NCBI RefSeq assembly: GCF_030819275.1
Contig: NZ_JAUTBL010000001.1
Span: forward strand, 62,001-126,000
Length of the DNA stretch: 64,000 nucleotides
Direction: 5' to 3'
Source: Agrobacterium larrymoorei
GTDB taxonomy: Bacteria > Pseudomonadota > Alphaproteobacteria > Rhizobiales > Rhizobiaceae
Made by a program: the position numbers and the translations under genes. The notes beneath the pieces are model-generated. The model was not told the origin of the DNA and ran no database searches. It worked only from the letters and a program-made list of their open reading frames with translations. Shown in pieces: positions 306-24,603 of this stretch (positions are counted from its first letter, which is position 1; each line of letters begins with the position of its first letter).

Positions 306-306
306 G

Positions 307-2329: not shown

Positions 2330-2644
2330 TCACTTCAAGGGCGAAAATGCGGCCGGTTTCATGATCTTGTTTTCAGCGACTTCGATGAGATCGCGGATTT
2401 TTGGCAGGAAGGCGAGCCAACGCGGATCGGCCATCAGCCGTGCGCGGCGCGCTTCGCGGTCGTCCAGACTGGAAAAGGCCCAGATATGGACGATCTCGTT
2501 GATCGGCCCGATTTCGGAGAAAAAGTATCCGATAAGTTCGCCAAGATGACTTTTCTGGATCTCGATACCCTCGTCTTCCACGACTTTGAGGTAGGCCGGA
2601 ATTGCTCCGTTCTTCAGCCGGTAGGTGCGGATTTCGTAGAACAT
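2330..2644 (-). CDS. NIPSNAP family protein
   Basis: A 104-residue protein with the compact ferredoxin-like NIPSNAP fold. It opens with MFYEIRTYRLKNG and has the typical 'IGYFFSEIGPINEIVHIWAFSSLDDRE' region, broken here only by its length, at residues 38-64. NIPSNAP proteins are small dimeric alpha/beta-barrel proteins that often accompany oxygenases and hydrolases in bacterial catabolic operons; a specific reaction is not established. It is the last gene of the monooxygenase operon, 4 bases after the aldehyde dehydrogenase stop. It could be an accessory isomerase or a product-handling protein; that role is inference. Confidence 0.85.
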   Translation of the reverse strand: MFYEIRTYRLKNGAIPAYLKVVEDEGIEIQKSHLGELIGYFFSEIGPINEIVHIWAFSSLDDREARRARLMADPRWLAFLPKIRDLIEVAENKIMKPAAFSPLK

Positions 2645-2648
2645 CGGC

Positions 2649-4115
2649 TTACCTCATCACGAATGGATCGGGGATAGGATCGTCGGACGTTCTCAGCCAC
2701 ACGGTTTTGGTGCGCGTATAATCAAGTGCAGCGGCAAGACCTCCTTCTCGGCCATCGCCGGAAAGGCCAAAGCCACCGAAGGGCGCGATCGGCGACACCG
2801 CCCGATAGGTATTGACCCAGACGATTCCGGCACGGATCGCCTTCATCAACCTGTGGGCGCGTGTCAGGTTCTGCGTGAAGACGCCGGACGCCAGGCCATA
2901 GACGGTGTCATTGGCAAGCAAGACCGCTTCTGCCTCCGTATCGAACGACATCACAGACAGTACAGGGCCAAAGAATTCTCTTTCCATGGAGGGCGAGCGG
3001 ATGCCGTCACAATCCAGAATGGTCGGGCGGTAAAAGTAGCCATCCCCATCGATCGCCTCACCGCCGGTCACCACCTTCGCGCCCGCCTCAACAGACACCG
3101 AGACCAGCGAGACGATGTGTTTCCTCTGCCGCTCCGTTGCGAGCGGGCCGACTTCGGTGGCCATGTCCAGCGGTGAGCCGATGCGGATCGCCTCTGCCTT
3201 TGCCTTCAGGATATCGAGGAAACGATCCTTAATGCTGCGCTCGACGATCAGCCGGGAGCCCGCAACGCAGCTCTGGCCGGTGGCGGCAAAAATTCCTGCG
3301 ACCTGCGCATTGGCGGCGCTTTCCAAATCAGCATCAGCAAAGACGAGGATAGGCGATTTGCCGCCGAGTTCCAGCGATGTGGACGCGAGGTTTTCCGCCG
3401 AATTGCGCACGATATGGCGCGCGGTTTCCGGTCCGCCGGTAAAGGCGATATGCGCCACCTTCGGATGCGTCGTCAGCGCGGTGCCGCAAGAGGCGCCGAA
3501 GCCGGTGACGATGTTGACAACGCCTGGGGGGAAACCCGCCTCATGCACCAGCCGTGCAAATTCCAGAAGCGGTGCAGGTCCGTCTTCCGATGCCTTAATG
3601 ACGATGGTGCAACCCGCCGCAAGCGCCGGACCGATCTTGACCGCCGCAAGAAACAGCTGGCTGTTCCATGGCACGATTGCCGCCACGACCCCCACGGGCT
3701 CGCGCCTCAGCCAGACATCCATATCCGGTTTGTCGATCGGCAGATAGGCGCCTTCAATCTTGTCGGCAAGCCCGGCATAATAACGGTAATATTCCGCGAC
3801 ATATGCGATCTGCGCCGAGGTCTCTCGAATGATCTTGCCAGTGTCGCGCGTTTCGAGTTCGGCCAGCGTCTTCGCATTCTCGGCCACCAGATCGGCAAGC
3901 CGATACAAAAGCTTGCCGCGTTGCGTCGGGGTGAGTTTAGACCACACAGCGTCATCATAGAGCGCCCGGTGCGCAGCGTCGACTGCGCGTCCGACATCCG
4001 CCTCCCGGCTTTCCGGCATCTGCGCCCATCCGGCGCCAGTAGCGGGATCGACGCTTGCAAACTGTCCTTCGCCATCTTCGAACCGTCCGTCGATGTAACA
4101 TTGGAAACGTTGCAT
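2649..4115 (-). CDS. NAD(P)-dependent aldehyde dehydrogenase
   Basis: An aldehyde dehydrogenase of 488 residues from the ATG at 4115; a longer in-frame start at 4145 would overlap the upstream gene. The oxyanion Asn is in PWN (residue 151), the general base Glu249 in LELGGKSP, and the catalytic Cys283 in GQSCVAG. The NAD site reads FTGGPE instead of the common FTGSTE. It lies 4 bases after the luciferase-like monooxygenase gene and is co-transcribed with it. In the trigonelline pathway of Acinetobacter baylyi, one aldehyde dehydrogenase oxidises the ring-opened hydroxybutyrolactone and another oxidises succinate semialdehyde. This enzyme could serve either step. The family is certain; the substrate is inferred. 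Confidence 0.95.
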   Translation of the reverse strand: MQRFQCYIDGRFEDGEGQFASVDPATGAGWAQMPESREADVGRAVDAAHRALYDDAVWSKLTPTQRGKLLYRLADLVAENAKTLAELETRDTGKIIRETSAQIAYVAEYYRYYAGLADKIEGAYLPIDKPDMDVWLRREPVGVVAAIVPWNSQLFLAAVKIGPALAAGCTIVIKASEDGPAPLLEFARLVHEAGFPPGVVNIVTGFGASCGTALTTHPKVAHIAFTGGPETARHIVRNSAENLASTSLELGGKSPILVFADADLESAANAQVAGIFAATGQSCVAGSRLIVERSIKDRFLDILKAKAEAIRIGSPLDMATEVGPLATERQRKHIVSLVSVSVEAGAKVVTGGEAIDGDGYFYRPTILDCDGIRSPSMEREFFGPVLSVMSFDTEAEAVLLANDTVYGLASGVFTQNLTRAHRLMKAIRAGIVWVNTYRAVSPIAPFGGFGLSGDGREGGLAAALDYTRTKTVWLRTSDDPIPDPFVMR

Positions 4116-4119
4116 CCGC

Positions 4120-5160
4120 TTACTCCTTGAAGGCTGGCATGACATCGGAAAGGAATCGTTCGAGGGATGCCTTTTTCCGCTCGAAGCTCATGCCGGTATC
4201 GATCCAGAACGAATATTCGTCATAGCCCATCGCCTCATAGGTCTTGATCCGGGCGATCACATCATCCGGATTGCCGATAACGTTGTTCGTGCGCATCACC
4301 TCGGCAGACAACATGGCGTTGCTCGCTATGTCTTCCGCTGGGATGCGCTCGATGAGGCCCTGGTGAACGGGCTTTTCGTTTTTGAACCAGGCGAAGAAGT
4401 AGTTGTAGTAGACACTCATCTCATGCGCGGCTCGCGCGATATCTGCCTCATCGGAGCCGACATAGGTATGGCGAAGCAGCATGATTTTCGGGCGTGGCTT
4501 TTCCGGGCTCTTGGCACAGGCGTCGTTGAAGCGGCCCATCAGGGTTTCGACCTCATCATCGCCCTGCCAAAGCGGGGTGACCTGCACATTGCAGTCGTTG
4601 GCAACGGCAAATTCATGGGAGTTTGGATCACGCGCCGCTACCCAGATCGGCGGGAACGGCTGCTGTAAGGGTTTGGGAGCCGATGTTGTAGCCGGGAATT
4701 TGTAGAACTCCCCATCATGGGCGTAGTCACCGGCCCATACGCCTTTAACCGCTGGGATGAGCTCACGCATACGCTGCCCCGCACCCCAGGCATCGAGGCC
4801 AGGAAGCAGTCGCTCATATTCAAAGGAATAGGCGCCGCGGGCAATGCCGATGTCGAGGCGACCGTCGCAGATGAGATCGGTCATCGCGGCTTCGCCGGCA
4901 AGCTTGATCGGATGCCAGAAGGGCGCGATCACCGTGCCGGTTCCCAGACGCGCGGTCTTGGTCCGGCGGGCGAGATCGGCAATCGTCACGAAGGGGTTGG
5001 GCGCAATGGTGAAATCCATGCCGTGATGCTCACCGGTCCAGATAGTATGCATCCCACCCCTGTCGGCGATCTCACAGAGCTGGACGAATTCCTCATAAAG
5101 GGTCTTGTGGTCCTGGGAGGCGTCGAGCCTTTCCATATGAACGAACAGCGAGAATTTCAT
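4120..5160 (-). CDS. LLM-class flavin-dependent monooxygenase (candidate trigonelline-type ring-opening oxygenase)
   Basis: A 346-residue bacterial-luciferase-like oxygenase with a TIM-barrel fold. It starts MKFSLFVHMERLD and has TIWTGEHHGMDF at residues 40-51, GTGTVIAPFWHP in the middle, and a C-terminal GNPDDVIARIK that is usual for the family. Enzymes of this class use FMNH2 supplied by a separate reductase. The reductase gene is directly upstream and overlaps it by ATGA, so this is a two-component system. With the hydrolase and aldehyde dehydrogenase alongside, the set matches the genes that split the C5-C6 bond of N-methylnicotinate. Alternative substrates, such as another pyridinium or N-heterocycle, cannot be excluded. 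Confidence 0.92.
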   Translation of the reverse strand: MKFSLFVHMERLDASQDHKTLYEEFVQLCEIADRGGMHTIWTGEHHGMDFTIAPNPFVTIADLARRTKTARLGTGTVIAPFWHPIKLAGEAAMTDLICDGRLDIGIARGAYSFEYERLLPGLDAWGAGQRMRELIPAVKGVWAGDYAHDGEFYKFPATTSAPKPLQQPFPPIWVAARDPNSHEFAVANDCNVQVTPLWQGDDEVETLMGRFNDACAKSPEKPRPKIMLLRHTYVGSDEADIARAAHEMSVYYNYFFAWFKNEKPVHQGLIERIPAEDIASNAMLSAEVMRTNNVIGNPDDVIARIKTYEAMGYDEYSFWIDTGMSFERKKASLERFLSDVMPAFKE

Positions 5161-6095
5161 GGACGGGCACCCTTGATCGAAACGGGATGAACCTTGCCTG
5201 CGGTTTCATTGCCGACATAAAGGCCGAAATTGCCGATGGAGCTTTCCAGTGCGAAGCGGTGGACGATGTCCGCAGTCGCACCGGATTCGAATATTGCCGA
5301 GGTCAGCGTGTCAGGCTCGAAGAAGCGCCCTTCGCGTGGGGCTCCATCGCCTTCAGCTAGAGCATGATAGACGATGTGCTGCCGGCCATCGGCTTTGTCT
5401 TCGTAAACCGAATAAAGAAAGCCAGTCCTGATCGATAAACCTGTGAGTTCCTCAAGCCGGTCGGTTAGCGCCGCCACCGGATCCCCACCGGCAACCACGC
5501 AAGCTGGAAGCGAAAGCCGATCTTCGCCCAGGAGATAAATCTCGCCATGCCGCTCCAGAACCGCCCCGACGGCGACCTCGCCCTCAGCCGCGGCAGACAC
5601 GGCTTTCGCGGCCAGCATGGGGGTGAAGTAACCCCCGCGAGCATAGCCGAGGCCATTTCGCCCGCTGTTGTCGAAAGCCGAAATGCGGCCGAGCAAGATC
5701 ACATGATCGCCCGCATCGATCACCTCCTGCATCGAACACTCGAACCAGGCCGAAACTTCGGTGAAGATCGGCGACCCATTCGGCGCGGCCTGCCAAGCCG
5801 CAGCGGCGAAGCGATCTTCAACCGGACGAGCGAAGGTGTTGGAGAGGTCCTTCTGGCCTTCGGAAAGAATGTTGACGGCAAAGGTCTTCGCCGCCGTCAT
5901 CGTGGCGAAGTTGCGCGACGTGCGCGCAAGGCAGATCAGAAGCAGCGGCGGATCGAGCGAAACGGAGGTGAAGGAGTTTGCGGTAAAGCCAATCGGCTTA
6001 CCGGCATCGTCCCGTGTCGTGACAATTGTGACCCCTGTTACAAAGGCGCCGAAAGCGTCGCGCAGGGCGCGTGGGTCAAGTGTTGGAACGGTCAT
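5157..6095 (-). CDS. Flavin reductase with degenerate Nudix-like C-terminal domain
   Basis: A 312-residue protein from the ATG at 6095, which overlaps the hydrolase stop as ATGA; an earlier in-frame start at 6122 would intrude further into that gene. Residues 1-165 form a flavin reductase domain: FVTGVTIVTTRD at 18-29, GFTANSFTSVSLDPPL at 36-51, and a terminal GYARGGYF. It would supply reduced FMN to the adjacent monooxygenase. Residues about 173-312 look like a Nudix fold, but the box at 203-220 reads GGDPVAALTDRLEELTGL and lacks the usual REx2EE glutamates. That part is therefore probably regulatory or structural. Two-domain reductases of this size are longer than the usual 160-190-residue family members. 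Confidence 0.9.
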   Translation of the reverse strand: MTVPTLDPRALRDAFGAFVTGVTIVTTRDDAGKPIGFTANSFTSVSLDPPLLLICLARTSRNFATMTAAKTFAVNILSEGQKDLSNTFARPVEDRFAAAAWQAAPNGSPIFTEVSAWFECSMQEVIDAGDHVILLGRISAFDNSGRNGLGYARGGYFTPMLAAKAVSAAAEGEVAVGAVLERHGEIYLLGEDRLSLPACVVAGGDPVAALTDRLEELTGLSIRTGFLYSVYEDKADGRQHIVYHALAEGDGAPREGRFFEPDTLTSAIFESGATADIVHRFALESSIGNFGLYVGNETAGKVHPVSIKGARP

Positions 6096-6937
6096 TTCGC
6101 CTCCTCCTCGATAGCGAGCCATTCGGCCATCAATGCGTTCACAGTCTCCGGCGCGGTGAGGTTGACCATATGGCGATGGGTGTCCACGATGCGCGCGTAA
6201 CCCCGTGGCGTAATCGCCGCCATCTGCTCCGCCATCAGCGGCGTCGAATTGGGATCGTCAGAGCCAGTGAGAAAAAGCGCGGGACATGCGACGGACGGCC
6301 AGCAACCCGCATAGGTCTCGTCTCCACCAGCAAAGGCATTGTAAGCGACCGCGTAGCCTTCGGGGTCGACCATATCCAGCCAGTTGCGTGTCAGTTCCCG
6401 CGCATGGATGCTCTTCGGGTCATTGCCGAACCAGCGCAAAAGTGGGCCTTGCTTGTCCACGCCGTTTGTCCGGATCGAGGCAGCACGCGCCAGAACGGAA
6501 GCCTTTGCCGCTGGATCGCGGCGATAGACACCATTCAGATAAGCCACCCGCATGACCCGGTCCCCGAAGGTTGCCGCGGCACCGCCAGAGATCAGAGCGC
6601 CCATGGAATGGCCCGCGACGTTGGCGCGCATAATCTTCAGGTCGTCCAGAAAGCGTCCGAACCAGCTGACGAACTCTTGGAGCGTGCTTCCCTCGGGAAG
6701 GCGCCCGCTGCCACCATGCCCCGGCATATCGACGGCGATCACGTGATGGCTCCGGGAGAGCGCCTCGATTTGTGGTTGCCAGGCTTCGAGACGCATTCCA
6801 ACGCCATGAATGAGGATGAGGTCTTCGCCCTCCCCCGCTTCGAAGTAGGCAGCGCCGCCCGCGGTCGTCTTCCGTGGCAACGTCGGTGCCGTTGCCTTGT
6901 CAACATGGACTGCGGGTGAACTGAGAGCGTCCTGCAT
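6092..6937 (-). CDS. Alpha/beta hydrolase (candidate enamide/formamide hydrolase)
   Basis: An alpha/beta-hydrolase-fold protein of 281 residues, counted from the ATG at 6937 with GAGGG upstream; a TTG at 6952 is the alternative start. The oxyanion region is LILIHGVG, the nucleophile elbow is GHSMG, the acid is probably in TGSDDPNS, and the catalytic His is in DTHRHMVN near the C terminus. It is encoded between the PF06684 protein and the flavin reductase. In trigonelline degradation a hydrolase splits the N-methylformamido-methylene succinate into CO2, methylamine, formate and succinate semialdehyde, and a related hydrolase acts in vitamin B6 breakdown. This gene is a good candidate for that step, by context only. 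Confidence 0.9.
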   Translation of the reverse strand: MQDALSSPAVHVDKATAPTLPRKTTAGGAAYFEAGEGEDLILIHGVGMRLEAWQPQIEALSRSHHVIAVDMPGHGGSGRLPEGSTLQEFVSWFGRFLDDLKIMRANVAGHSMGALISGGAAATFGDRVMRVAYLNGVYRRDPAAKASVLARAASIRTNGVDKQGPLLRWFGNDPKSIHARELTRNWLDMVDPEGYAVAYNAFAGGDETYAGCWPSVACPALFLTGSDDPNSTPLMAEQMAAITPRGYARIVDTHRHMVNLTAPETVNALMAEWLAIEEEAK

Positions 6938-6948
6938 CAGTGCGGCCC

Positions 6949-7551
6949 TCAAACGCCGGCCGGATTGGCAACGTCCTGGCCGAGATCTTTCAAATCCTGA
7001 TAGCGATCTCCAATACGATGGTGAGGCCGGCCACCAACGGACGCGCCGAGCGCAACGATGATCTCATCAGCTGCCGGAGCATCGGGAATTGAGGTCTGGA
7101 TTGTCAGATAATGGGAGCGGCGGCCTTCGTCATTCTTGTCCATCAGTGGGATCATGATCGGCGCATTGCCGGGGCCGCGCGTGTTGGAGAAGGCGAGATA
7201 GGACTTGGCACCGACGGCCTGACGGTAATGATTACCGAAACGCAAGGTATGGATCAGTGCCGATGCATGTTCAATCTCGCCTTCGAGACCGACGACCGCA
7301 GCCTTCCCATAGCCTTCGACCGCATCTCCCGAGCCAACGGCATCAAGGATCATCTTGGTCAGCAATTCGCCAAGCACTGGCGCAGCCGCGTGGATTTCCG
7401 GCTTCAGATCATCAACGAAGCCCTTTCCTGCCCAGGGATTTTTCACCACGGCCAGTGCGGCAAACAGCTTTAACGGCGTTGCAGCCGCCTTGCCTCCCTC
7501 TATCAACGTCGTTTCGACCTGCAACAATGTCTTGCGGATCTGGATGGACAT
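6949..7551 (-). CDS. PF06684 'amino acid synthesis' family protein
   Basis: A 200-residue protein of the family called amino acid synthesis protein (PF06684). It has the typical opening MSIQIRKTLLQVETTLIEGG and the motifs KNPWAGKGFVDDL (residues 37-49), GYGKAAVVGLEGEIEH (79-94) and ALGASVGGRPHHRIGDRYQD near the C terminus. Members form hexamer-like assemblies and their activity is poorly defined despite the name. It is the first gene of the operon that runs to the NIPSNAP gene, and its promoter carries a GntR-type operator. The trigonelline pathway of A. baylyi also needs a conserved hypothetical protein; whether it is this family I cannot confirm. Confidence 0.87.
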   Translation of the reverse strand: MSIQIRKTLLQVETTLIEGGKAAATPLKLFAALAVVKNPWAGKGFVDDLKPEIHAAAPVLGELLTKMILDAVGSGDAVEGYGKAAVVGLEGEIEHASALIHTLRFGNHYRQAVGAKSYLAFSNTRGPGNAPIMIPLMDKNDEGRRSHYLTIQTSIPDAPAADEIIVALGASVGGRPHHRIGDRYQDLKDLGQDVANPAGV

Positions 7552-7578: not shown

Positions 7579-7594
7579 TTATGGTATGCCATAA
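7579..7594 (-). promoter_or_regulatory. GntR-type operator, site 1 (monooxygenase operon promoter)
   Basis: On the minus strand this reads TTATGGCATACCATAA, an inverted repeat with ATGG/CCAT arms. It lies 8 bases after a TTGACA -35 element (7608-7603), so it covers the -10 region, and it ends 27 bases before the start codon at 7551. It matches site 2 at 15 of 16 positions and site 3 at 13 of 16. Overlap with the -10 region suggests repression. The assignment to the GntR protein encoded at 11488-12186 is inference from location and symmetry. Confidence 0.8.
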
Positions 7595-7667: not shown

Positions 7668-8846
7668 CTATACCGCCTCCAATCGTCCGTCATAGGCGAG
7701 TTCATAGAGACGAGTCATTTCCGCCTCATTCGGAATGCGCGGATTGTTTCCAGGCGTTCCTGAGGCAAGCCCCTGTCGCACCATTTCCGGCAGGAGGCCG
7801 AGATACCGGCTCCTCTCGATCCCGAATTCTTCCGGGGTGGGCACCTTCAGTCTTTTGTTGAGGCCGATGAACGCCTCCACCAGCTTAGCTCCGGCAACAG
7901 GGTCGCTATCGTCTGACGTGGCGCACCCTAGCGCGCGAGCCGCCGCCGCATAGCGCGGCAAGGCGGCATTCAAGGAAAACTGCGTCACCAGCGGCAGCAC
8001 CATGGCATTCGACATGCCGTGAGGCACGTGAAAAAAGGCGCCAATCGGTCGGCTCAAACCATGGATCAGGGCTGTAGAGGTATTGGAAACCGCAAGTCCA
8101 GCATGGGTGGCACCGAGCATCATTGCTTCGCGTGCCGTCCGGTCGTTTGGATCGTTCGCGACCCGCTCCAGATGAGCGCCGATGAGCTTCAACGCGGACA
8201 GCGCCAGTGCCTCGGCGTGGGTATTGCCATTCCGGTTGACCAGTGCCTCCAGCGCATGAGTCAGCGCATCAATGCCGGTATCCACCGTGACGCGATAGGG
8301 ACAAGTCAGTGTCAGCTCATAATCGATGATGGCCGCGACCGGCAAAGCCGCAGTGCCGAGGATCAACATTTTTTCGCTGGCGCCCGTATCGGTTACCACC
8401 GCAGCACGCGTAACCTCGGAGCCGGTTCCCGCAGTCGTCGGGATGGCGACGACTGGCATTACCGTGAAATCGACGATGCGCGGTACCTTCAGCGCTCGCA
8501 GCTCCTCACCACTTGTAGCAACGATTGCGCCCGCCTTGGCAGTATCGATAGCACTGCCCCCACCAAGCGCGACCAAGCCATCATGGCTTCCATCTGAAAT
8601 CCGATCCACCAAGGACTGGATGGTGATGTCTGTAGGATCTTCCACCACGTCGGAGAAAATCGCGGCGTCGACATCCTCATCGGCAAGAGCCTGCAAGAGG
8701 GCATCAGCATGGCCGAACTTCCGCATGACTGGATCACAGACAAGCAGTGGACGGCGAACACCGAGCGATTTGACAATGCCCGGCAATCGAAATCGACTTC
8801 CGCCACCGATCAGCAGTTCGCGCGGCATCAGGACACGGTTTATCAT
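7668..8846 (-). CDS. Iron-containing alcohol dehydrogenase
   Basis: A 392-residue group III (Fe-dependent) alcohol dehydrogenase. The cofactor motif is GGGSAIDTAKA (about residues 94-104). Metal ligands are in the DALTHALEA segment, the ALIHGLSRP segment and the following FFHVPHG segment. Substrates of this family include 4-hydroxybutyrate, 1,3-propanediol, lactaldehyde and maleylacetate. It is the last gene behind the polar amino acid-type transporter, 77 bases after the ATPase gene, and is read toward the monooxygenase operon promoter. It could reduce succinate semialdehyde or oxidise a hydroxyl intermediate; which one is not visible. Maleylacetate reductase is a possible alternative, but no ring-cleavage dioxygenase is nearby. 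Confidence 0.92.
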   Translation of the reverse strand: MINRVLMPRELLIGGGSRFRLPGIVKSLGVRRPLLVCDPVMRKFGHADALLQALADEDVDAAIFSDVVEDPTDITIQSLVDRISDGSHDGLVALGGGSAIDTAKAGAIVATSGEELRALKVPRIVDFTVMPVVAIPTTAGTGSEVTRAAVVTDTGASEKMLILGTAALPVAAIIDYELTLTCPYRVTVDTGIDALTHALEALVNRNGNTHAEALALSALKLIGAHLERVANDPNDRTAREAMMLGATHAGLAVSNTSTALIHGLSRPIGAFFHVPHGMSNAMVLPLVTQFSLNAALPRYAAAARALGCATSDDSDPVAGAKLVEAFIGLNKRLKVPTPEEFGIERSRYLGLLPEMVRQGLASGTPGNNPRIPNEAEMTRLYELAYDGRLEAV

Positions 8847-8923: not shown

Positions 8924-9673
8924 CTAATGCGCCAGGATTTTCGACAGGAAGGAGCGCGCGCGTTCCGTCTTGGGATGGGTGAAGAAACTGTCGCCCTCGC
9001 CGATCTCCACGATCTCTCCGCCATCCATGAAGACGATCCGATCGGCCACCTTGCGGGCAAATCCCATTTCATGGGTGACGACCATCATCGTCATACCCTC
9101 TTGGGCAAGCGACACCATGACATCGAGAACCTCGTTGATCATTTCCGGATCGAGCGCGGAAGTCGGCTCATCGAAGAGCATCGCAACAGGGTCCATCGCA
9201 AGCGCACGGGCAATCGCCACACGCTGCTGCTGCCCGCCTGACAGCTGGCCTGGATATTTGCGGGCCTGTGCCGTCAGCCCAACCCGCTCAAGCAGAGCAT
9301 TGGCCTTGGCGAGCGCTTCATCCGGCGAGCGCCCCAGAACCTTTTCCTGCCCGATGCAGAGATTTTCGAGGATCGTCATATGTGGGAAGAGTTCAAAATG
9401 CTGAAACACCATTCCCACCTTGGAGCGCAGCTTCGGCATGTCGGTCTTTGGATCCGTGACCTCGACCCCGTTGACGACGATCACACCATTTCCCACCGTT
9501 TCCAACGCGTTGACGCATTTGATCAGCGTCGACTTTCCAGACCCGGAGGGACCGCAGATCACAACGACCTCACCCTTGGCGACGTTGAGGCTGCAATTGG
9601 TCAGGACTTGAAAAGTGGGTCCATACCATTTGTTGACGGAGTGCAGTTCGATCATACCGGTTGCTTGAGACAT
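8924..9673 (-). CDS. Polar amino acid-type ABC transporter ATPase
   Basis: A 249-residue ATPase with Walker [10 protein letters not shown] (residues 41-49), the glutamine-loop segment [14 protein letters not shown], signature LSGGQQQR and Walker [15 protein letters not shown]. The closest family pattern is GlnQ/HisP, the cytoplasmic engine of importers for polar amino acids and opines. It is encoded directly after the permease gene with a 10-base gap. It pairs with only one permease gene, which is common for homodimeric permeases. Substrate choice lies in the binding protein at 10448-11308. Confidence 0.96.
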
Positions 9674-9683: not shown

Positions 9684-10385
9684 TTAATGCGCGTCAGCAG
9701 ACATTGGGCCGTAGGCTTTGCCGAACCGCTTCTCGATGCGGCGCTGGATCAGTTCCCATGCGGTTGTCATGGCGAGGTAGTAGAGAGCTGCGACGGTAAA
9801 GAGCTCCAGAACCAGAAACTTCTCCTGAATGAGGACCTGCGTGCGTCGCAGAAGCTCTTCCATGGAAATGATCGAGGCGATTGAGGTGGTCTTGAGCACA
9901 CCGTTGACGGAGTTGCCAAGCGGCGGAATGATGATGCGGAATGCCTGCGGCGCCACAATGTAGCGCATGACCTGCGCCTCCGTCATACCGATCGCGCGTG
10001 CCGCATTGACCTGCCCCTTCGGCACCGCGGCAATACCGGCACGAACGATTTCGGACAGATAGGCGGCCTCGCAAAGTGAGAGACCAATCAGCGTCGATTG
10101 CACCACCGTGAACTTGATACCGATCTGCGGCAGGCCGGTATAGATGATGATCAGTTGGACCAGAAGCGGTGTGCCACGAAAGATCCACGTGTAGAAGTAA
10201 GCCGGACCGGAGAGGATGCGGTACTTCGACATGCGCATTACGGCGATGATGAAGCCCAAAGCTAAACCCGCCGTCATAGCGAATATGGTAAGGCCGAGCG
10301 TAACCAGCGCGCCCTCGAAGAGATAAAAATTCGTAAGATATTCGAAAAAGCCTTCCCAGTTCCAACCCTTCACGTCGATCTCCAT
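9684..10385 (-). CDS. Polar amino acid-type ABC transporter permease
   Basis: A 233-residue HisM/GlnP-type permease. Membrane segments start near residue 20 and the conserved [20 protein letters not shown] segment appears as [19 protein letters not shown] at about 68-86. The cytoplasmic loop [21 protein letters not shown] follows, contacting the ATPase. Only one permease is encoded, so a homodimer is likely. The gene lies between the binding protein (62-base gap) and the ATPase (10-base gap). The operon is predicted to be controlled from operator site 2. Confidence 0.94.
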
Positions 10386-11308: not shown

Positions 11309-11335
11309 TGTGAGCTCCACTCTCTATATTATTGA

Positions 11336-14615: not shown

Positions 14616-14700
14616 GTCATTCCCCTTTTTTGGTATCAGACACTTGATTTTAGAAAGACGGTCGCATCCTCCCAAACGCGCCCGTCCTTAATGCATGCTT

Positions 14701-16731: not shown

Positions 16732-16767
16732 GGATATGACTTTCACACGGATAGGCCGAGGGCGGCA

Positions 16768-17673
16768 TCAGGCTGCTTTTTCGTGGTCCCAGAAATAGAC
16801 GGTCGCAGGCTCCGGCTCCCAGACGCGAGCGGTCTCAATACCCGGCAGATTGACCAAGGCACGATATTCCGAACCGAAGGCGACATACTGATCCGTCTCG
16901 GCCATGACGGCGGGCTTGCAGGCAATCGGATCGCGTACGACGCCGAACCCGGACTTTGTGCCGACAACGAAGGTGAAGAAGCCGTCGAGATCGTCGAGCG
17001 CACCGGTCAGCGCTTCACCCAGATCCTTGCCCTTGGCCATTTCTGCCGTGAGATAAGCGGCCGCCACTTCGGAGTCGTTCTGGGTTTCGAAACTCATGCC
17101 CTCACGAACCAGCTCGCGGCGCAGGTTGTTATGGTTGGAGAGCGAACCATTATGCACGAGGCATTGGTCCGAGCCCGTGGAAAAGGGATGCGCGCCAAGC
17201 GTCGTCACTGCCGATTCCGTTGCCATTCGGGTATGGCCGATGCCGTGGGTGCCGGCCATGGAGCGCACGTCGAAACGGGCAACAACGTCTTTCGGCAAGC
17301 CAGTCTCTTTATAGATTTCAACGCTGTCGCCCGACCCCATCACGCGCACATTCGGACGGATTGCAGCGAGAACCGCACGGATCGTATCAAGCGCGTCCGA
17401 CGAAATGTCGAGAACGGCATGGGTGCTCTTCACCGTCACCGAGGCATCGACACCGTTTTCCTTCAGCGCATCGGCAAGACCGGAAAAATCAACATCCGGG
17501 CTGGCCGACTGGATCGTCACCTTGGCGCGCCCTGCGGCAGCGCCGCCATAGATCGCAATACCTGCCGAATCCGGCCCACGATCGGTCATGGTGATCAGCA
17601 TATCCGAGAGCAGCTGACCCAGCTGCGGCTCTAGACTTTTATCTTTCAGGAATAATCCAACAATGCCGCACAT
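16768..17673 (-). CDS. mgsA: N-methylglutamate synthase subunit A (class II glutamine amidotransferase)
   Basis: A 301-residue Ntn-type amidotransferase. The ATG at 17673 is chosen so that MCGIVGLF gives the N-terminal Cys nucleophile after Met removal; a longer frame to 17703 would bury it. Other motifs are GHTRMATES, the LVHNGSLSNHNNLRREL region and NDSEVAAAYL for glutamine-like substrate binding. It would remove methylamine from gamma-glutamylmethylamide and pass it to the FMN subunit. It heads the operon. The upstream 96 bases hold the probable promoter, beside the XRE regulator gene that ends at 17770. Confidence 0.93.
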   Translation of the reverse strand: MCGIVGLFLKDKSLEPQLGQLLSDMLITMTDRGPDSAGIAIYGGAAAGRAKVTIQSASPDVDFSGLADALKENGVDASVTVKSTHAVLDISSDALDTIRAVLAAIRPNVRVMGSGDSVEIYKETGLPKDVVARFDVRSMAGTHGIGHTRMATESAVTTLGAHPFSTGSDQCLVHNGSLSNHNNLRRELVREGMSFETQNDSEVAAAYLTAEMAKGKDLGEALTGALDDLDGFFTFVVGTKSGFGVVRDPIACKPAVMAETDQYVAFGSEYRALVNLPGIETARVWEPEPATVYFWDHEKAA

Positions 17674-17769
17674 CGATAGGCACCTCCGTTCGTTTCTGAA
17701 CAAAGGCGTATCATATGGAATTTCTAAACGTCAACTATCAGGAATAATTTTTTCTTCTAAAGCAATCCT

Positions 17770-18435
17770 TCAGTCACCGGTGACCCGACGCTGAGGGTAG
17801 GAAATGATCGACAAGTAGCGCGCCGGAAGCTGCACCAAGACCTCCGGTCCATGTGGCGCATCCGCATCAAAAAACAGGCTATCTCCCGCCTGCATTGTGA
17901 AAAGCTGCTCTCCGTGGCGATAAACCACCTCGCCCTCCAGCATGTAGAGAAACTCCATTCCCTCATGCTGAAAGGTTGGAAAGACATCGGAGTCCGTGGT
18001 CAGGGTGATGAGGTAGGGCTCGACGGTAACGCCGCTTGTGTTGTTGTCGATATGTCCGAGCAAGCTATACTGGTGCCCAGCCCGCGTGCCCCGGCGCTCG
18101 ATATTGACGCCCTGCCCTGCTTTAACAAAGGTGGCGCTGCGCGGCTCCTCAAAGCCACGGAAGAAGGCGGTGATCGGCACACCCAAGGCCTTGGAGAGGG
18201 TCTGCAAGGTCGTCAGCGACGGGGAGATGTTGCCGTTTTCGATCTTCGACAGCATACCAACGGACACGCCTGTCGCTGATGCCAGATCGGTCACGGTAAT
18301 ACCGAGCTTTTTGCGATACGCCCTTACCTCGTGACCAATCGCCATTTCCAGATTGTTGACCCTGGGCTCGCGAACGGCATGAGGGTCCTGCGACAGGAAC
18401 TGTGCGGCGTCGCTCGTGGTGGTGTCCTTGGCCAT
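17770..18435 (-). CDS. XRE-cupin transcriptional regulator
   Basis: A 221-residue regulator. The Cro/C1 helix-turn-helix lies at about residues 26-80 (VTDLASATGVSVGMLSKIEN) and a cupin domain at about 130-215 (FQHEGMEFLYMLEGEVVYRH, GDSLFFDADAPHGPEV). The ATG at 18435 has GGAG six bases upstream; 18450 is the other possible start. Regulators of this kind (PuuR-like) sense small amines or amino acids through the cupin. It lies directly upstream of mgsA in the same direction, so it probably controls the mgs-gmaS operon or itself. Confidence 0.92.
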   Translation of the reverse strand: MAKDTTTSDAAQFLSQDPHAVREPRVNNLEMAIGHEVRAYRKKLGITVTDLASATGVSVGMLSKIENGNISPSLTTLQTLSKALGVPITAFFRGFEEPRSATFVKAGQGVNIERRGTRAGHQYSLLGHIDNNTSGVTVEPYLITLTTDSDVFPTFQHEGMEFLYMLEGEVVYRHGEQLFTMQAGDSLFFDADAPHGPEVLVQLPARYLSIISYPQRRVTGD

Positions 18436-18484
18436 TGGTTGCTCCGGCATCGGCTTCGTTACCCTTCCTTACAGGAAAGCAATT

Positions 18485-19459
18485 TTAATTCGGAGGAAAT
18501 TTTTGCCGCAGCGTATTGGGCGTTTTACCAAAATGAGCCTTGAAGCATCCGGAAAAGTGACCGGCGCTGGAAAAACCGGTCGCAAAGGCCACTTCGGCGA
18601 TGGAGAGCGGACTCTGCTCAAGCAACCTGCGGGCATGGTCGAGGCGGATCTCGCGGTAGGTGTCCAGAAACGACGTCCCGAGCTGGCTTGCAAACAAACG
18701 ATCAAGATGGCGCGGGCTCGTTCCGGCAAGCTTGGCCATGGTCTGACGGTCGAGCGGGTTTTCGATGGTGGCTTCCATTTTTTCCAGTACCGTCAACACT
18801 GCAGGATGGTGGGTGCCATAACGCTCCGCCAACGAACCGCGCTGCGGCGCGCTGGGTTCGGCCACGGCCGTGTGCAGGAACCAGTCGCTCACACGCCGCG
18901 CAAAATGGGCGCCCATACGCTGAGAGATCATCGCATGCATCATGTCGAGAGGCGCGACACCGCCAGCACAGGTGATCCGGTCGCCATCGAAAACGAAACG
19001 CGCCTGTCTGGGCGTCAAATGGCCAAATGCCTCGCGCAGCACCGGGGCATGTTCCCAATGGATGGTGAAATCGCGATTGTCCAGCAAGCCCGCCGCAGCA
19101 AGAATATAAGCGCCACTGGAGATGCCACCGACGCGTACTCCCTGCCGGGCGAGGCGTCGTAGAAGTGCCAAAGAACCCTCCGGCAAAGCCCAGTCCTGTG
19201 GTGTGCCGCCGGCGCATACAAAAATCGTGTGACATGCGTCGCCGACGATCGACAAAGGTTGACAGTCCACGGGAATGCCGGATGACGTCCGAACAGTCTC
19301 TCCATCGAACGACAATGGGATCGCCTCATAAAGATCGGTCCCGGCAATCAGATTGGCTGCACGCAGCGGTTCGGCTGCGGAGGCATAGGACATCAGCGCA
19401 AAGTTCGGCATCAGAAGGAAGCCGATCCGCTGAGCATTCTTCTGCTCGAAAGTGGACAT
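18485..19459 (-). CDS. GlxA-type AraC regulator (DJ-1/PfpI sensor domain)
   Basis: A 324-residue regulator with an N-terminal class I amidotransferase-like domain (about 10-190) and a C-terminal AraC double helix-turn-helix (about 215-320; PLSIAEVAFATGFSSAGHFS). The usual catalytic Cys site reads GGISSGAYIL, so the sensor domain is not catalytic. This group (GbdR, SouR, CdhR) activates betaine, sarcosine or carnitine catabolism in pseudomonads. It is divergent from mgdA with a 91-base gap, so activation of mgdABCD is the natural inference. The ligand may be N-methylglutamate or a related methylated amino acid. Confidence 0.92.
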   Translation of the reverse strand: MSTFEQKNAQRIGFLLMPNFALMSYASAAEPLRAANLIAGTDLYEAIPLSFDGETVRTSSGIPVDCQPLSIVGDACHTIFVCAGGTPQDWALPEGSLALLRRLARQGVRVGGISSGAYILAAAGLLDNRDFTIHWEHAPVLREAFGHLTPRQARFVFDGDRITCAGGVAPLDMMHAMISQRMGAHFARRVSDWFLHTAVAEPSAPQRGSLAERYGTHHPAVLTVLEKMEATIENPLDRQTMAKLAGTSPRHLDRLFASQLGTSFLDTYREIRLDHARRLLEQSPLSIAEVAFATGFSSAGHFSGCFKAHFGKTPNTLRQKFPPN

Positions 19460-19550: not shown

Positions 19551-20801
19551 ATGCGCTATTCCGCTTTTTCCATTTTGATGAACGGCCTTCGTGGCAACAA
19601 GGTCTGGAAGCCCGCTTGGCGGGATCCCGCGCCCAAGGCGCATTACGATGTCATCATAGTTGGTGGCGGCGGACACGGGCTGGCAACAGCCTATTATCTC
19701 GCCAAGGAATTCGGCACCACCAATGTGGCAGTACTGGAAAAGAACTATATCGGCTCCGGTAATGTCGGACGCAACACCACGATCATCCGCTCCAACTATC
19801 TCCTGCCTGGCAATAATCCTTTCTATGAGCTGTCGATGAAGCTGTGGGAAGGCCTGGAGCAGGATTTCAACTTCAACGCCATGGTCTCCCAACGCGGCGT
19901 CCTCAACCTCTATCATTCCGATGCACAGCGCGATGCCTATACCAGGCGCGGCAATGCCATGCGTCTGCATGGTGTCGATGCCGAATTGCTCGATCGTAGT
20001 GCCGTCAAATCCATGCTGCCATTTCTCGATTTCGACAATGCGCGCTTCCCCATCCAAGGCGGCTTGTTGCAGCGGCGCGGCGGCACAGTGCGTCATGATG
20101 CCGTCGCCTGGGGCTATGCGCGCGGGGCAGATCAACGCGGCGTCGACATCATCCAGGGCTGCGAAGTGACCGGCATCCGCCGCGAAAACGGCAAAGTGGT
20201 CGGCGTAGAGACGAGCCGCGGCTTTATCGGCTGCGACAAGCTGGCGCTCGCGGCAGCCGGTAGTTCCTCACAGGTGGCGGCAATGGCCGGGCTGCGCCTG
20301 CCGATCGAAAGCCACGTGCTGCAAGCCTTCGTCTCGGAAGGCCTGAAGCCCTTCATCGATGGCGTTGTCACCTTTGGTGCCGGACATTTCTACGTCTCGC
20401 AATCCGACAAGGGTGGCCTCGTCTTCGGCGGTGATATCGACGGCTATAATTCCTACGCGCAGCGCGGCAACCTGGCGACGGTCGAACACGTCGCGGAGGC
20501 CGGCAAGGCGATGATCCCTGCGCTTTCCCGCGTTCGCGTGCTGCGCTCCTGGGGCGGCATCATGGATATGTCGATGGATGGTTCGCCGATCATCGACCGC
20601 ACCGGTATCGACAATCTCTATCTGAATGCCGGCTGGTGCTACGGCGGCTTCAAGGCAACGCCCGCCTCCGGCTTCTGCTTTGCCCATCTTCTGGCGCGCG
20701 GCGCGCCGCAGGAAACGGCAACCGCGTTCCGTCTGGACCGCTTTCAACGCGGCTATCTCATCGACGAAAAGGGTCAGGGCGCCCAGCCCAATCTTCACTG
20801 A
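19551..20801 (+). CDS. mgdA: N-methylglutamate dehydrogenase subunit A (SoxB-like)
   Basis: A 416-residue FAD flavoprotein of the heterotetrameric sarcosine oxidase beta family. The FAD site is DVIIVGGGGHGLATAYYLA (about 34-52), followed by the family motif GRNTTIIRSNYLLPGN. A histidine in RGGTVRHDAVAWGY matches the covalent-FMN His of SoxB. It oxidises the N-methyl group of N-methylglutamate, with electron transfer to the MgdC partner. Sarcosine oxidase is the standard automatic name, but the adjoining gmaS-mgsABC genes point to N-methylglutamate. It heads mgdABCD. Confidence 0.93.
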   Translation: MRYSAFSILMNGLRGNKVWKPAWRDPAPKAHYDVIIVGGGGHGLATAYYLAKEFGTTNVAVLEKNYIGSGNVGRNTTIIRSNYLLPGNNPFYELSMKLWEGLEQDFNFNAMVSQRGVLNLYHSDAQRDAYTRRGNAMRLHGVDAELLDRSAVKSMLPFLDFDNARFPIQGGLLQRRGGTVRHDAVAWGYARGADQRGVDIIQGCEVTGIRRENGKVVGVETSRGFIGCDKLALAAAGSSSQVAAMAGLRLPIESHVLQAFVSEGLKPFIDGVVTFGAGHFYVSQSDKGGLVFGGDIDGYNSYAQRGNLATVEHVAEAGKAMIPALSRVRVLRSWGGIMDMSMDGSPIIDRTGIDNLYLNAGWCYGGFKATPASGFCFAHLLARGAPQETATAFRLDRFQRGYLIDEKGQGAQPNLH

Positions 20802-20825: not shown

Positions 20826-21101
20826 ATGGCAAGTCTCGTGCCCTGCCCGCATTGCGGGCCAAGACCTAAGGAAGAGTTCACCATCAAGGGTGCCGTTCTT
20901 CAGCGACCCGCACCGGACGCTAGCGCCGAGGCATGGTTCGACTATGTCTATCTGCGCGACAATCCGCGTGGCGACTATGAGGAATATTGGCACCACACCG
21001 CAGGCTGCCGCCGGTGGCTGGTGGTGACCCGCAGCACGGCGACCCACGCCATCAGCGCCTGCGAAGACGCCGCCGATAAGACAAAGGTGAAAAGCGCATG
21101 A
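20826..21101 (+). CDS. mgdB: N-methylglutamate dehydrogenase subunit B (SoxD-like)
   Basis: A 91-residue zinc-binding delta subunit of the sarcosine oxidase family. It opens MASLVPCPHCGPRPKEEF with the CPHCG metal site, followed by the conserved DYVYLRDNPRGDYEEYWHHT and GCRRW. It is a small structural subunit holding the complex together. It starts 25 bases after mgdA and overlaps the mgdC start by four bases (ATGA). Confidence 0.93.
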   Translation: MASLVPCPHCGPRPKEEFTIKGAVLQRPAPDASAEAWFDYVYLRDNPRGDYEEYWHHTAGCRRWLVVTRSTATHAISACEDAADKTKVKSA

Positions 21102-24062
21102 CATCCCACCGCCTGACCGCTGGCGGTCTGATCGACCGCTCAAAGCCGCTCTCCTTCACCTTCGATGGCAAGACGATGCAGGGGTTCCAAGGCGATAGCC
21201 TCGCCTCTGCCCTGCTCGCAAACGGCCAGCAGCTCGTTGGCCGCAGCTTCAAATATCACCGCCCGCGCGGCATCCTGACAGCGGGTGCGGCAGAACCGAA
21301 CGCGCTGATGACAATCGGCAAGGGCGGCAGAACCGAGCCCAATACCCGCGCCACGATGCAGGAGCTTTATGCCGGTCTGGAAGCGCGAAGCCAAAACCGA
21401 TGGCCATCTCTCGACTTCGACGTCGGCGCGATGACCGGACTGATCTCGCCGTTCCTCAGCGCAGGCTTCTACTACAAGACCTTCATGTGGCCCGCAGCCT
21501 TCTGGGAAAAGCTCTACGAGCCCTTCATCCGCCGCGCGGCAGGCCTCGGCAAGGCAACCTATGAGGCCGATCCCGACTCCTATGACAAATGCTGGGCGCA
21601 TTGCGATCTGTTGGTGATCGGCGCCGGTGCTGCTGGCCTTACTGCGGCTCTGACCGCCGGACGGGCTGGCGCGCGGGTGATCCTTATCGATGAGCATTCC
21701 GTCGCAGGCGGCACACTTCTTTCGGAAACGGCGACCATTGGCGGCACCAGCGCGCCGGAATTTGCTGCAACCTGCATTGCCGAACTGGACTCTCTGCCGA
21801 ATGTCACTGTCCTTACCAGAACGACCGCCTTCGGCTGGTATGATGGCAATGTGTTCGGCGCAGTCGAGCGCGTGCAGAAACATCTGCCCGATCCTAAGCC
21901 CACTATTCCGGTTGAGCGTCTGTGGCGCATCGTCGCGAAGCGCGCCCTGCTTGCAACCGGCGCTGAAGAACGGCCCCTGGTTTTCGGCGGCAACGATGTC
22001 CCCGGTGTGATGATGGCAGGCGCAATGCGCAGCTATCTCAACCGCTACGCGGTCAGCCCCGGCAAAGCGACGGCGATCTTCACGACCAATGACAGCGGCT
22101 ATGCGCTGGCCCGCGATCTGGAAGCGAAAGGCGTCCCGCTTGTCGCCATTATCGATAGCCGCAGTGAGGGAAACCTCTCGTACGCGGGCAAAGCCCGTGT
22201 CATCAAAGGCGGCGTCGTTGCCAATACCAAGGGTAGCAAGGCGCTCGCCGGCGTCGAAGTCTACAGAAATGGCAGCACCGAACATCTGGATGTCGATGCG
22301 CTCGCCATGTCCGGCGGTTTCAGTCCGGTCATTCACCTCGCCTGTCACCGGGGCGGAAAACCCGTATGGTCTGACGAAGAGACAGCCTTCCTTGCGCCCG
22401 GTCATCTCGATGGGCTGGATCTCGCCGGTGCCGTCTCTGCCACGCATGGCCTCGCCGCATGCCTTGAAGACGGCGCCAACAAGGGTGCCGCACTGGCCCA
22501 AGCTCTCGGCTTTGCCACAACCGCACCTTCCTTTGGACAGGTTGAAAACGATATTGTTGTCCCGCCGGCAAAGGCGCTTTGGTCCATTCCGAGCGTTAAG
22601 GCAAAGGCCTTCGTCGATTACCAGAACGATGTGCATCGCAAGGATCTCGGCCTGGCTGTGGCCGAAGGCTATGCCCATGTGGAGCTTGCCAAGCGCTACA
22701 CGACCAATGGTATGGCGACCGACCAGGGCAAGCTTTCCAACGTCAACGCCATCGGACTTCTTGCCGAAGCGCGCGGCGTGTCTCCCGCAGAGGTGGGCAC
22801 CACTACCTTCCGGCCCTTCTACACGCCGGTTTCCTTCGGTGCACTGACAGGCGCCTACCATGGCCACCATTTCCAGCCGGTGCGCAAATCACCGCTGCAT
22901 GGCTGGGCAGAGAAGAACGGCGCGGTGTTTGTCGAAACCGGGCTCTGGTATCGCTCCTCCTGGTTTCCGCGCAAGGGCGAAAACGGCTGGCGAGAAAGTG
23001 TCGACCCGCGAAGTTCTGAATGTCCGGAAGAATGCAGGGCTCTGCGATGTCTCGATGCTCGGAAAGATCGAGATTTGTGGGCGCGATGCCGCGGAATTCC
23101 TCAACCGCGTCTATTGCAATGCGTTCCTCAAACTTCCCGTCGGCAAGGCACGTTATGGCCTGATGCTGCGCGAGGACGGCATGATCTATGATGATGGCAC
23201 GACGAGCAGGCTGGACGAGAACCGGTATTTTATGACGACGACAACGGCCTATGCCGCAGGCGTGATGAACCATCTGGAATTCTGCGCCCAGGCCCTGTGG
23301 CCTGATCTCGACGTGCGATTGGCATCCGTTACCGATCAATGGGCGCAGATGGCGATTGCTGGACCGAAGTCCAGAACCATTCTCGAAAAGATCGTTGACG
23401 ACGATCTTTCGAACGACGCCTTTCCGTTCCTCGCTGCGAAAGAGGTCTCGCTCTTCGGTGGTCAGTTGCACGGGCGTCTGTTTCGCATCTCCTTCTCCGG
23501 CGAACTTGCTTATGAGCTCGCCGTTCCCGCGGGCTATGGCGAAAGTGTCGCTGACGCACTGATGCAAGCTGGCGCGCCGGAGGGCATCATGCCCTATGGC
23601 GTCGAGGCGCTGAGCGTCCTGCGCGTCGAGAAAGGTCACGTGACCCACAATGAAATCAACGGCACGGTCGTGCCGGCCGATCTCGGCTTTGGCAAAATGG
23701 TGTCTGCCACCAAAGCGGATTTCATCGGCAAGAACATGTTGGAGCGCGAAGGGCTTTCCGCCAGTAACCGGCCAAGCCTGGTCGGCGTCGCGCCCATCGA
23801 CAAAGGCCAGAGCTTCCGCACCGGCTCCCATATTCTGGCAAAGGATGCCGAGGCGACGCTTGAAAACGATCAGGGCTATGTGACGTCCAGCGCTTTCTCA
23901 CCGCATATCGGCTCCACCATCGGCCTTGCCTTGGTCAAAAATGGCAGAAACCGGCATGGCGAAGAGGTGATGGTTTGGAACGGCCTTCGCAACGAATTCA
24001 CCGCCGCGCGCCTCTGCGATCCGGTTTTCGTCGACCCCAAGAACGAGAAGCTCCATGTCTGA
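21098..24062 (+). pseudogene. mgdC: N-methylglutamate dehydrogenase subunit C (SoxA-like), one frameshift
   Basis: The gene would encode about 988 residues, the usual length for SoxA-type alpha subunits. Frame one covers the N-terminal ferredoxin-like domain (GKTMQGFQGDSLASALLANG), the FAD/NAD site CDLLVIGAGAAGLTAALTAG and the central domain up to ENGWRESVD. The remainder, from REVLNVRKNAGLCDVSMLGK through the folate-binding aminomethyltransferase domain to the stop at 24062, is in another frame. The shift is explained by one extra C in the CCC at 23005-23007. The C-terminal domain passes the methyl carbon to tetrahydrofolate. If the shift is real the complex is lost; if not, it is a base-calling error. 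Both halves are otherwise intact. Confidence 0.9.
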
Positions 24063-24603
24063 TCCACGGCTCGATTTCAAATCCGGTTACCAGCCCCTTC
24101 TCCGTCCCGTGCTCGGCGCAAAAAGAGCGATCTCCTCAGACGCGATCCGGTTGTCGCCATTGCCGGAAGGCACCATTATCCATATCCTCGCAACACCGGG
24201 CGCAGCGGAGGTGGAAAACCACCTTCACGCATTGAAGAAAGGCGCTGTTCGCGCCGTGTCTCCGGGGCAATGGTTTATCGTCAGCGACGAGATCATGTCT
24301 CATGCCGAAATGACAGCGTTCTTCATTCAGCTTGAACCGCAGGCAACAGCGGTGGATCAGAGCCAAGGCCGTGTGCGTCTGCGGATCGAAGGCAGAATGG
24401 TTGAGCGTGTGCTGGCAAAAGGCACGGCGGTCGATCTCTCGATCCATGTCTTTCCGATCGGCCACTCTGCCACAACGCTGATCGGGCATATCACTGCGCA
24501 TGTGACGCGCATAGAAGACCACGCTTTTGAGATCCTCGTCCTGCGTGGCTTCGCCGAAAGCCTTTGGGACGATCTCGTCCGCATGTGTCAGGAATTCGCC
24601 TGA
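24055..24603 (+). CDS. mgdD: N-methylglutamate dehydrogenase subunit D (SoxG-like)
   Basis: A 182-residue gamma subunit of the heterotetrameric sarcosine oxidase family. It has the typical short, poorly conserved N terminus and the segment GTAVDLSIHVFPIGHSATTL (residues 123-142), then a C-terminal VLRGFAESLWDDLVR. SoxG-type subunits resemble the folate-binding domain of aminomethyltransferases and contact the alpha subunit. The start overlaps the mgdC end by eight bases, indicating translational coupling. It ends the operon; the next gene is convergent. Confidence 0.9.
   Translation: MSDPRLDFKSGYQPLLRPVLGAKRAISSDAIRLSPLPEGTIIHILATPGAAEVENHLHALKKGAVRAVSPGQWFIVSDEIMSHAEMTAFFIQLEPQATAVDQSQGRVRLRIEGRMVERVLAKGTAVDLSIHVFPIGHSATTLIGHITAHVTRIEDHAFEILVLRGFAESLWDDLVRMCQEFA

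Follow-up and report, generated by a model that had tools for sequence, protein, structure and literature searches.

Does a single locus of Agrobacterium larrymoorei join the breakdown of trigonelline (N-methylnicotinate) to the assimilation of the methylamine that this breakdown would release? The question arises from the left part of the window, by which we mean the whole stretch of 64,000 nucleotides analysed here (G000:C1:62001-126000, in a genome of 4.88 Mb on two contigs), where an initial annotation had proposed that N-methylpyridinium ring opening feeds methylamine into the N-methylglutamate (NMG) route. In our reading, to which we give a probability of roughly 0.77, the locus combines a regulon for trigonelline catabolism and an NMG methylamine module, arranged head to tail, as suggested by gene identities, an operator sequence, and the co-occurrence and repeated linkage of both modules across genomes. 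Both pathways are known; what is new is a trigonelline-methylamine supercluster that recurs and carries a conserved candidate operator, a result that is less surprising because trigonelline use by Sinorhizobium meliloti has long been known.

The ring-opening genes form a compact block near the left end of the window:

2649..4145, minus strand, aldehyde dehydrogenase of TgnC type (PF00171; 71% identical to that of the Acinetobacter junii tgn cluster)
4120..5160, minus strand, luciferase-like (LLM) flavin monooxygenase, TgnB-type ring-opening oxygenase (PF00296; 70% to P0121, 71.5% to A. junii)
5157..6122, minus strand, flavin reductase with a C-terminal extension, TgnA-type (PF01613; 42% over 304 alignment columns to the A. 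junii reductase)
6092..6952, minus strand, alpha/beta hydrolase, TgnD-type (PF00561; 53% to the A. junii hydrolase)
6949..7551, minus strand, PF06684 (DUF1185) protein, TgnF-type (PF06684; 72% to the A. junii protein)

The trigonelline cluster tgnABCDEF of Acinetobacter baylyi ADP1 is said to have been described by Perchat in 2018, with ring opening by a reductase/oxygenase pair reportedly followed by oxidation by an aldehyde dehydrogenase and by hydrolysis to methylamine, formate, CO2 and succinate semialdehyde. All four enzymes that the initial annotation had assigned to such a route (monooxygenase, reductase, dehydrogenase and hydrolase) were borne out, and comparison with the Acinetobacter Tgn proteins, made through the A. 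junii plasmid cluster, gave 42-72% identity in the same gene order: PF06684 protein, hydrolase, reductase, oxygenase, aldehyde dehydrogenase. The protein P0121, matched over 344 residues, is named by NCBI a flavin-dependent trigonelline monooxygenase oxygenase component [Acinetobacter], and a JGI trigonelline name stands on 7 of 120 oxygenase homologues among the matches listed (79-82% identity), both names being annotations. Partner reductase, aldehyde dehydrogenase and hydrolase share an operon with the oxygenase in the window, with gaps of -31 to 4 bases when the dehydrogenase is assumed to start at 4115; its start codon is not settled (the A. junii alignment begins at residue 14), and read from 4145 the gene overlaps that of the oxygenase. 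This dehydrogenase scores under the cut-off of every NCBIfam model listed (25 of the 44 matching models). The five-gene core recurs in 79 of 80 named loci, the best 80 of at least 558 confirmed relatives, the exception (L014) being a 3.4-kb contig.

NCBIfam scores do not group the oxygenase with the alkanesulfonate or nitrilotriacetate enzymes, a placement that would have spoken against the proposed route. With the alkanesulfonate monooxygenase model SsuD (TIGR03565) the oxygenase reaches 28.1 bits, where the cut-off is 518.2; of the 24 NCBIfam models that match it, none is named for nitrilotriacetate, the presence of such a model in the library being unchecked. A search of solved structures returned distant luciferase-like chains only, the best being 7bip_A at 111.7 bits.

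Compared with the Acinetobacter cluster, the window has the same enzyme classes and the same operator, adds a NIPSNAP-family gene, two ATP-binding cassette (ABC) transporters and an iron-type alcohol dehydrogenase, and lacks an adjacent succinate semialdehyde dehydrogenase. Its tgn genes are preceded by a methylamine-assimilation module, whereas the A. junii plasmid has no gmaS. On that plasmid (CP077416.1, L090), which gives no gmaS match, a folD gene and a soxBDAG-type set at 298-6407 adjoin the tgn cluster; here, in a distant lineage, trigonelline genes again have a one-carbon module as neighbour.

A second point of comparison is the trigonelline (trc) region on the symbiotic plasmid of S. 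meliloti, where pSymA carries the same core together with the NIPSNAP gene, a transporter and the GntR gene. In strain R28, transposases, noeB and nodL lie at one border of the pSymA cluster; nifT, nifB, nifA and a FixB-family gene lie at the opposite border. A strain lacking pSymA fails to grow on trigonelline (PMC4207669), and the title of a 1991 paper places trigonelline catabolism of rhizobia on the symbiotic plasmid; from its position, the R28 cluster would be the classical trigonelline locus. The pSymA location thus stands beside the oxygenase identity, the widely kept core and the common operator in matching the enzyme classes to the Acinetobacter trigonelline pathway, as first proposed. 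Positions 2330-7551 are strongly supported as an orthologue of the tgn cluster, and trigonelline is the predicted substrate in this strain.

LLM oxygenases vary in substrate, and a sister cluster with a 41% identical oxygenase lies beside a ProX-type betaine transporter in Agrobacterium fabrum. Both observations would suit a ring-opening cluster whose main substrate is some other pyridine, N-methylated or plain (homarine or N-methylnicotinamide, for example), and which gives methylamine or ammonia as a by-product. This we regard as quite improbable, given the 70% identity to the NCBI-named Acinetobacter trigonelline monooxygenase, an operator that is common to Rhizobiaceae and Acinetobacter and absent from the sister cluster, and the S. 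meliloti phenotype and pSymA location described above. For homarine, no gene-level paper was found by title among those listed.

The sister cluster itself (L094, positions 5466-11255 of A. fabrum pAt1D1487) combines its LLM oxygenase with a reductase, an aldehyde dehydrogenase, a hydrolase, a carboxymuconolactone-decarboxylase-family protein, a NIPSNAP protein and a PF06684 protein. No tgn operator site of at least 8 bits was found at this cluster, which is perhaps another N-heterocycle ring-opening system.

The methylamine side of the locus consists of purU and eight NMG genes:

12339..13223, minus strand, purU, formyltetrahydrofolate deformylase (TIGR00655, 328.7 bits, cut-off 286)
13308..14675, minus strand, gmaS, gamma-glutamylmethylamide synthetase, named type III glutamate--ammonia ligase in NCBIfam (TIGR03105, 676 bits, cut-off 470)
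14701..16029, minus strand, mgsC, glutamate-synthase-like FMN domain subunit (glutamate synthase large subunit match, below cut-off)
16045..16746, minus strand, mgsB, FwdC-like subunit (TIGR03122 match, below cut-off)
16768..17703, minus strand, mgsA, glutamine amidotransferase subunit (PF13522)
19551..20801, plus strand, mgdA (soxB-type), N-methylglutamate dehydrogenase subunit (TIGR01373, 737 bits, cut-off 529)
20826..21101, plus strand, mgdB (soxD-type; TIGR01374, 112.9 bits, just below the cut-off of 116.5)
21098..24062, plus strand, mgdC (soxA-type), read in two frames that overlap, with a break near 23000 (TIGR01372)
24055..24603, plus strand, mgdD (soxG-type; TIGR01375, 142.2 bits, just below the cut-off of 143.95)

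GmaS, MgsABC and MgdABCD act in series, with gamma-glutamylmethylamide and N-methylglutamate as intermediates, and turn methylamine into methylene-tetrahydrofolate while its nitrogen is retained; the genes occur together in methylotrophs and other bacteria. All eight genes of the methylotroph cluster are also in the window, with purU, and the calls of purU and gmaS made in the initial annotation stood up against curated models (TIGR03105 we take to be GmaS). The other gmaS matches in this genome are at most 39% identical, and a second mgdA/soxB copy lies elsewhere at 53%. MgsABC is assigned by domain only, as three glutamate-synthase-like subunits in order, no curated Mgs model having matched; mgsC is 95-99% identical in four relatives. 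The set had been called complete, which holds for the presence of all eight genes and is doubtful for their integrity, mgdC being split into two overlapping frames. Compared with the known cluster, two regulators here lie between mgd and the divergent mgs, gmaS and purU, which continue into the trigonelline genes.

The two modules do not abut as closely as had been described. On the minus strand, from mgsA (17703) to an ABC ATPase past the left edge of the window, run 20 co-directional genes with gaps of at most 167 bases: mgsA, mgsB, mgsC, gmaS, purU, GntR, a family 3 substrate-binding protein (SBP3), permease, ATPase and iron-type alcohol dehydrogenase, then PF06684, hydrolase, reductase, LLM oxygenase, aldehyde dehydrogenase, NIPSNAP, a family 8 substrate-binding protein (SBP8), two permeases and an ATPase. 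The NMG set is therefore not directly upstream of the ring-opening enzymes, since purU and the hydrolase are separated by genes for a GntR regulator, for the binding protein, permease and ATPase of an amino-acid-type ABC transporter, for an iron-type alcohol dehydrogenase and for the PF06684 protein. The PF06684, NIPSNAP and GntR genes and the two transporters, none of them listed initially, belong to the trigonelline part. Beyond mgsA, at 17770-24603, come two regulators and then the plus-strand soxBDAG-type genes (mgdABCD).

Are the two modules also regulated together? Side-by-side comparison of upstream regions gave one palindrome, TTATGGYATACCATAA, ahead of the PF06684 gene. The comparison took in the 82 loci that had a PF06684 match above 60% and enough upstream sequence, with about 170 bases examined in each; the best match per locus had no mismatch in 29 loci, one in 29, two in 15, three in 8 and four in 1, and the poorest of these best matches may be chance. 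The A. junii locus carries a perfect site. Within the window the palindrome occurs with at most three mismatches at three places, amounting to 6 strand-wise matches against 0.10 expected (shuffle mean), and in the whole genome at most two mismatches are met by those three sites and one other, at C2:793686. The sites and the regulators of the locus are:

7579..7594, unstranded, operator TTATGGCATACCATAA ahead of the tgn operon (palindrome match; comparison of 82 loci)
11336..11351, unstranded, operator ahead of the transporter and alcohol dehydrogenase insert (palindrome match)
12252..12267, unstranded, weaker operator ahead of the GntR gene (palindrome match)
11488..12186, minus strand, GntR/FCD regulator (PF07729, PF00392)
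17770..18450, minus strand, helix-turn-helix (HTH)-cupin regulator (PF01381, PF07883)
18485..19459, minus strand, GbdR-like AraC regulator (NF052371, 262 bits, cut-off 480)

The GntR/FCD regulator probably controls the tgn genes by binding this candidate operator, and the site at 12252 suggests that it may also regulate itself. Since the insert has an operator site of its own, as do the tgn operon and the GntR gene, it very probably belongs to the trigonelline regulon. Promoter-like patterns (6 against 5.9 in shuffles) and terminator-like patterns (10 against 11.3) show no excess in the window; two promoter-like sites, 7608-7581 and 11357-11328, overlap operators.

No operator site of at least 8 bits was found ahead of gmaS, mgs, purU or mgd, in the window or, within the fetched stretches, in linked relatives. 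A single shared trigonelline-methylamine regulon is thus unsupported in the window, the genome and the linked relatives, and because the tgn operator is missing ahead of its genes the NMG module appears to be under separate control. Probably it is served by the HTH-cupin regulator, which lies near NMG genes in most linked relatives, and by the GbdR-like AraC regulator. Read-through from purU into the GntR gene is possible.

If regulation is separate, is the neighbourhood of the modules more than coincidence? In an evenly drawn sample of 199 family genomes (oxygenase at E <=1e-130, gmaS at E <=1e-150), 29 carried the oxygenase and 63 carried gmaS, the latter being present in 25 of the 29 oxygenase carriers against 38 of the 170 non-carriers (Fisher p ~6e-11, kinship not corrected). 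Oxygenase and gmaS lay at most 25 kb apart in 6 of the 25 genomes with both, against 0.25 by random placement, and in 5 of 24 when our own genome was left out. Six may be an undercount, because many assemblies are fragmented. As a control we used soxB copies of a 49-55% identity group, taken for sarcosine oxidase, which stood near the oxygenase at none of 35 places in the 29 genomes; rows of 64-77%, neither in this group nor always beside gmaS, were excluded, one of them (G107) lying on the oxygenase contig about 59 kb off. PurU was present in 24 of the 29 carriers (E <=1e-60) and entered no test.

Among the 80 named loci, 14 had an NMG gene (gmaS, mgs or mgd) in the flanking sequence fetched, which reached 10 kb at most, and 3 more had purU alone, several flanks being shorter because contigs end. 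Among 37 whole genomes behind these loci, which we chose and which are enriched in linked ones, gmaS was present in 35, with one partial match; three plasmid records gave no gmaS match. The named and family samples overlap, G190/L011 and G028/L015 appearing to be the same genomes.

Linked trigonelline and NMG genes fall into four layout classes, read across the whole locus in four relatives and from flanks in the others:

Class 1, mgs-gmaS, mostly with purU, leading to the tgn operon in head-to-tail orientation: own genome, G190, G009, L009, L010, L025, L042, L049, L050, L069 (in L069 a different regulator lies between the NMG genes and the tgn operon)
Class 2, mgd upstream, in the same direction as tgn: L057, L058, L067, G028 (in G028 a gap of about 3.6 kb precedes GntR)
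Class 3, mgd downstream, convergent: G107, L062, L072
Class 4, purU-gmaS-mgs downstream, convergent: L068

A tree built from 88 oxygenases requires the linked/not label to change at least 10 times, by gain or loss. For this count 18 rows were labelled linked, L014, L061, L088, L090, L093 and L094 were left unlabelled, and the three purU-only loci were scored as not linked; finer layout labels (11 changes) were not relied on. Since gene order and orientation vary between the classes, repeated loss from one linked ancestor seems less likely. The linkage of the two modules looks selected.

An alternative is that a general clustering of catabolic genes on shared accessory replicons has by itself made the modules neighbours, the NMG genes serving methylamine from any source with no particular link to trigonelline. 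The low share of linked genomes (6 of 25 in the family, none of 5 outside it), the separate regulators without a shared operator and the gmaS genes of oxygenase non-carriers would all suit it. We consider this explanation unlikely, since it leaves unaccounted for the excess of linked pairs over random placement, the contrast with the soxB control, the recurrence of linkage in four layouts and the enrichment of gmaS among oxygenase carriers.

Several findings weigh against a trigonelline regulon joined to an NMG module, and we set them out together. The NCBI and JGI trigonelline (TgnB) names are annotations, and our comparison ran via A. junii, not the ADP1 sequence. Linkage is the minority state, with gmaS on another contig in 17 of 25 genomes and far off on the same contig in 2, and more than a fifth of oxygenase non-carriers have gmaS too. 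Among 13 carriers outside the family (from a class sample of 385 genomes, our own excluded), gmaS was found in 5 and on the oxygenase contig in none of these 5, several assemblies being fragmented; linkage was unseen there, and we do not claim it as general beyond the family. The S. meliloti pSymA record has no gmaS, the gene being present in the S. meliloti 4H41 genome. The oxygenase tree is a quick one, with support below 80 on 39 of 85 inner branches, and the tgn operator is missing ahead of the NMG genes. To these are added features of the window strain itself. Its mgdC is broken, the frames 21098-23191 and 22860-24062 covering TIGR01372 (soxA) positions 3-648 and 644-996 with the break near the start of the GcvT-like part, where the nearest relative (G190) has a single frame without inner stop. 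The substrate-binding protein gene at 1257-2271 is broken in the same manner and intact in the nearest relative. No TgnE-type succinate semialdehyde dehydrogenase occurs in the 18 kb beyond the left end of the window.

Because mgdC and the binding protein are frame-broken, the methylamine route may be dead in this strain, unless the breaks are assembly errors. This leads to a further possibility, compatible with the joined trigonelline and NMG modules in relatives, namely that the locus is decaying and partly non-functional here, the breaks and the missing dehydrogenase being real losses. The two breaks lie about 21 kb apart, no run of five or more equal bases occurs within about 120 bases round either, and everything that is broken or absent is intact or present in the nearest relative, which has a succinate semialdehyde dehydrogenase at the end of its tgn operon. 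Against decay, the other genes of the locus align at 83-99% identity with the nearest relative over most or all of their length (soxG at 73%), and we hold real loss to be possible, if doubtful. A homologue of the dehydrogenase (63%) lies at C1:1124071 in this genome. In ADP1, the homologue of the PF06684-family protein, TgnF, stimulates TgnE-dependent succinic semialdehyde oxidation (PMC7913881). With its frame breaks, the window strain is a poor choice for a first test.

Mechanistically, trigonelline would enter via one or both ABC transporters, the reductase/LLM pair would open the N-methylpyridinium ring, the aldehyde dehydrogenase would oxidise the product, and the hydrolase would free methylamine, formate, CO2 and succinate semialdehyde. 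In turn, GmaS would join methylamine to glutamate, MgsABC would make N-methylglutamate, and MgdABCD would hand the methyl group to tetrahydrofolate and return glutamate, with the nitrogen kept, while PurU would drain formyl-tetrahydrofolate to formate. The GntR regulator at TTATGGYATACCATAA would govern the trigonelline genes; the NMG genes would be under regulators of their own, perhaps responding to newly formed methylamine. Capture of trigonelline-derived methylamine by the adjacent NMG route, the central proposal of the initial annotation, we infer for this locus: strong co-occurrence and repeated linkage argue for it, and the mgdC break, the minority linkage and the separate regulators without a tgn operator argue against it.

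Trigonelline is a common legume metabolite. We see an even chance that Rhizobiaceae repeatedly built a trigonelline-methylamine supercluster using the ring carbon, the one-carbon units and the nitrogen, and that a main native role of their NMG route is to capture methylamine derived from plant N-methyl compounds and not free environmental methylamine. The comparison offers a gene set, an operator and a regulator for rhizobial trigonelline catabolism and predicts the fate of nitrogen and methyl group, and the rhizobial NMG pathway gains a plausible plant-derived substrate. In a literature search that covered few subscription papers, no description joining the trigonelline cluster and the NMG module was found among the papers listed; papers on trigonelline with N-methylglutamate were, by title and opening of the abstract, metabolite studies.

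The remaining genes of the row are the NIPSNAP gene, the two transporters and the alcohol dehydrogenase:

307..1182, minus strand, ABC permease of the downstream transporter (PF00528)
1257..2271, minus strand, substrate-binding protein (SBP_bac_8), frame broken near 1996-2000 (PF13416; two tblastn pieces)
2330..2644, minus strand, NIPSNAP-family protein (PF07978)
7668..8846, minus strand, iron-type alcohol dehydrogenase, in the insert with the ABC transporter (PF00465)
8924..9673, minus strand, amino-acid-type ABC ATPase (PF00005; best NCBIfam match GlnQ, under its cut-off)
9684..10385, minus strand, amino-acid-type ABC permease (TIGR01726, above cut-off)
10448..11320, minus strand, substrate-binding protein family 3 (PF00497)

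The downstream transporter continues past the left end of the window with a second permease (C1:61511-62305) and an ATPase (C1:60429-61508), 79-80% identical to their S. meliloti and Rhizobium etli counterparts. The NIPSNAP gene lies within the trigonelline row in 65 of the 80 named loci, and we know of no role for its product there. The insert at 7668-11320, between GntR and the tgn operon, occurs in 4 of the 80. By oxygenase, the nearest named relatives among the matches listed are Rhizobium nepotum 39/7 (95%), Agrobacterium tumefaciens UMA610 and Allorhizobium terrae (94% each).

Beyond mgdD, at 24638-60336, the window holds hydantoinase/oxoprolinase genes (two A/B pairs and two more of A type), genes for dipeptide-type ABC transport, two oxidoreductases of the DAO family and an Asparaginase_2 protein, which make up another amide or N-methyl catabolic region adjoining the locus.

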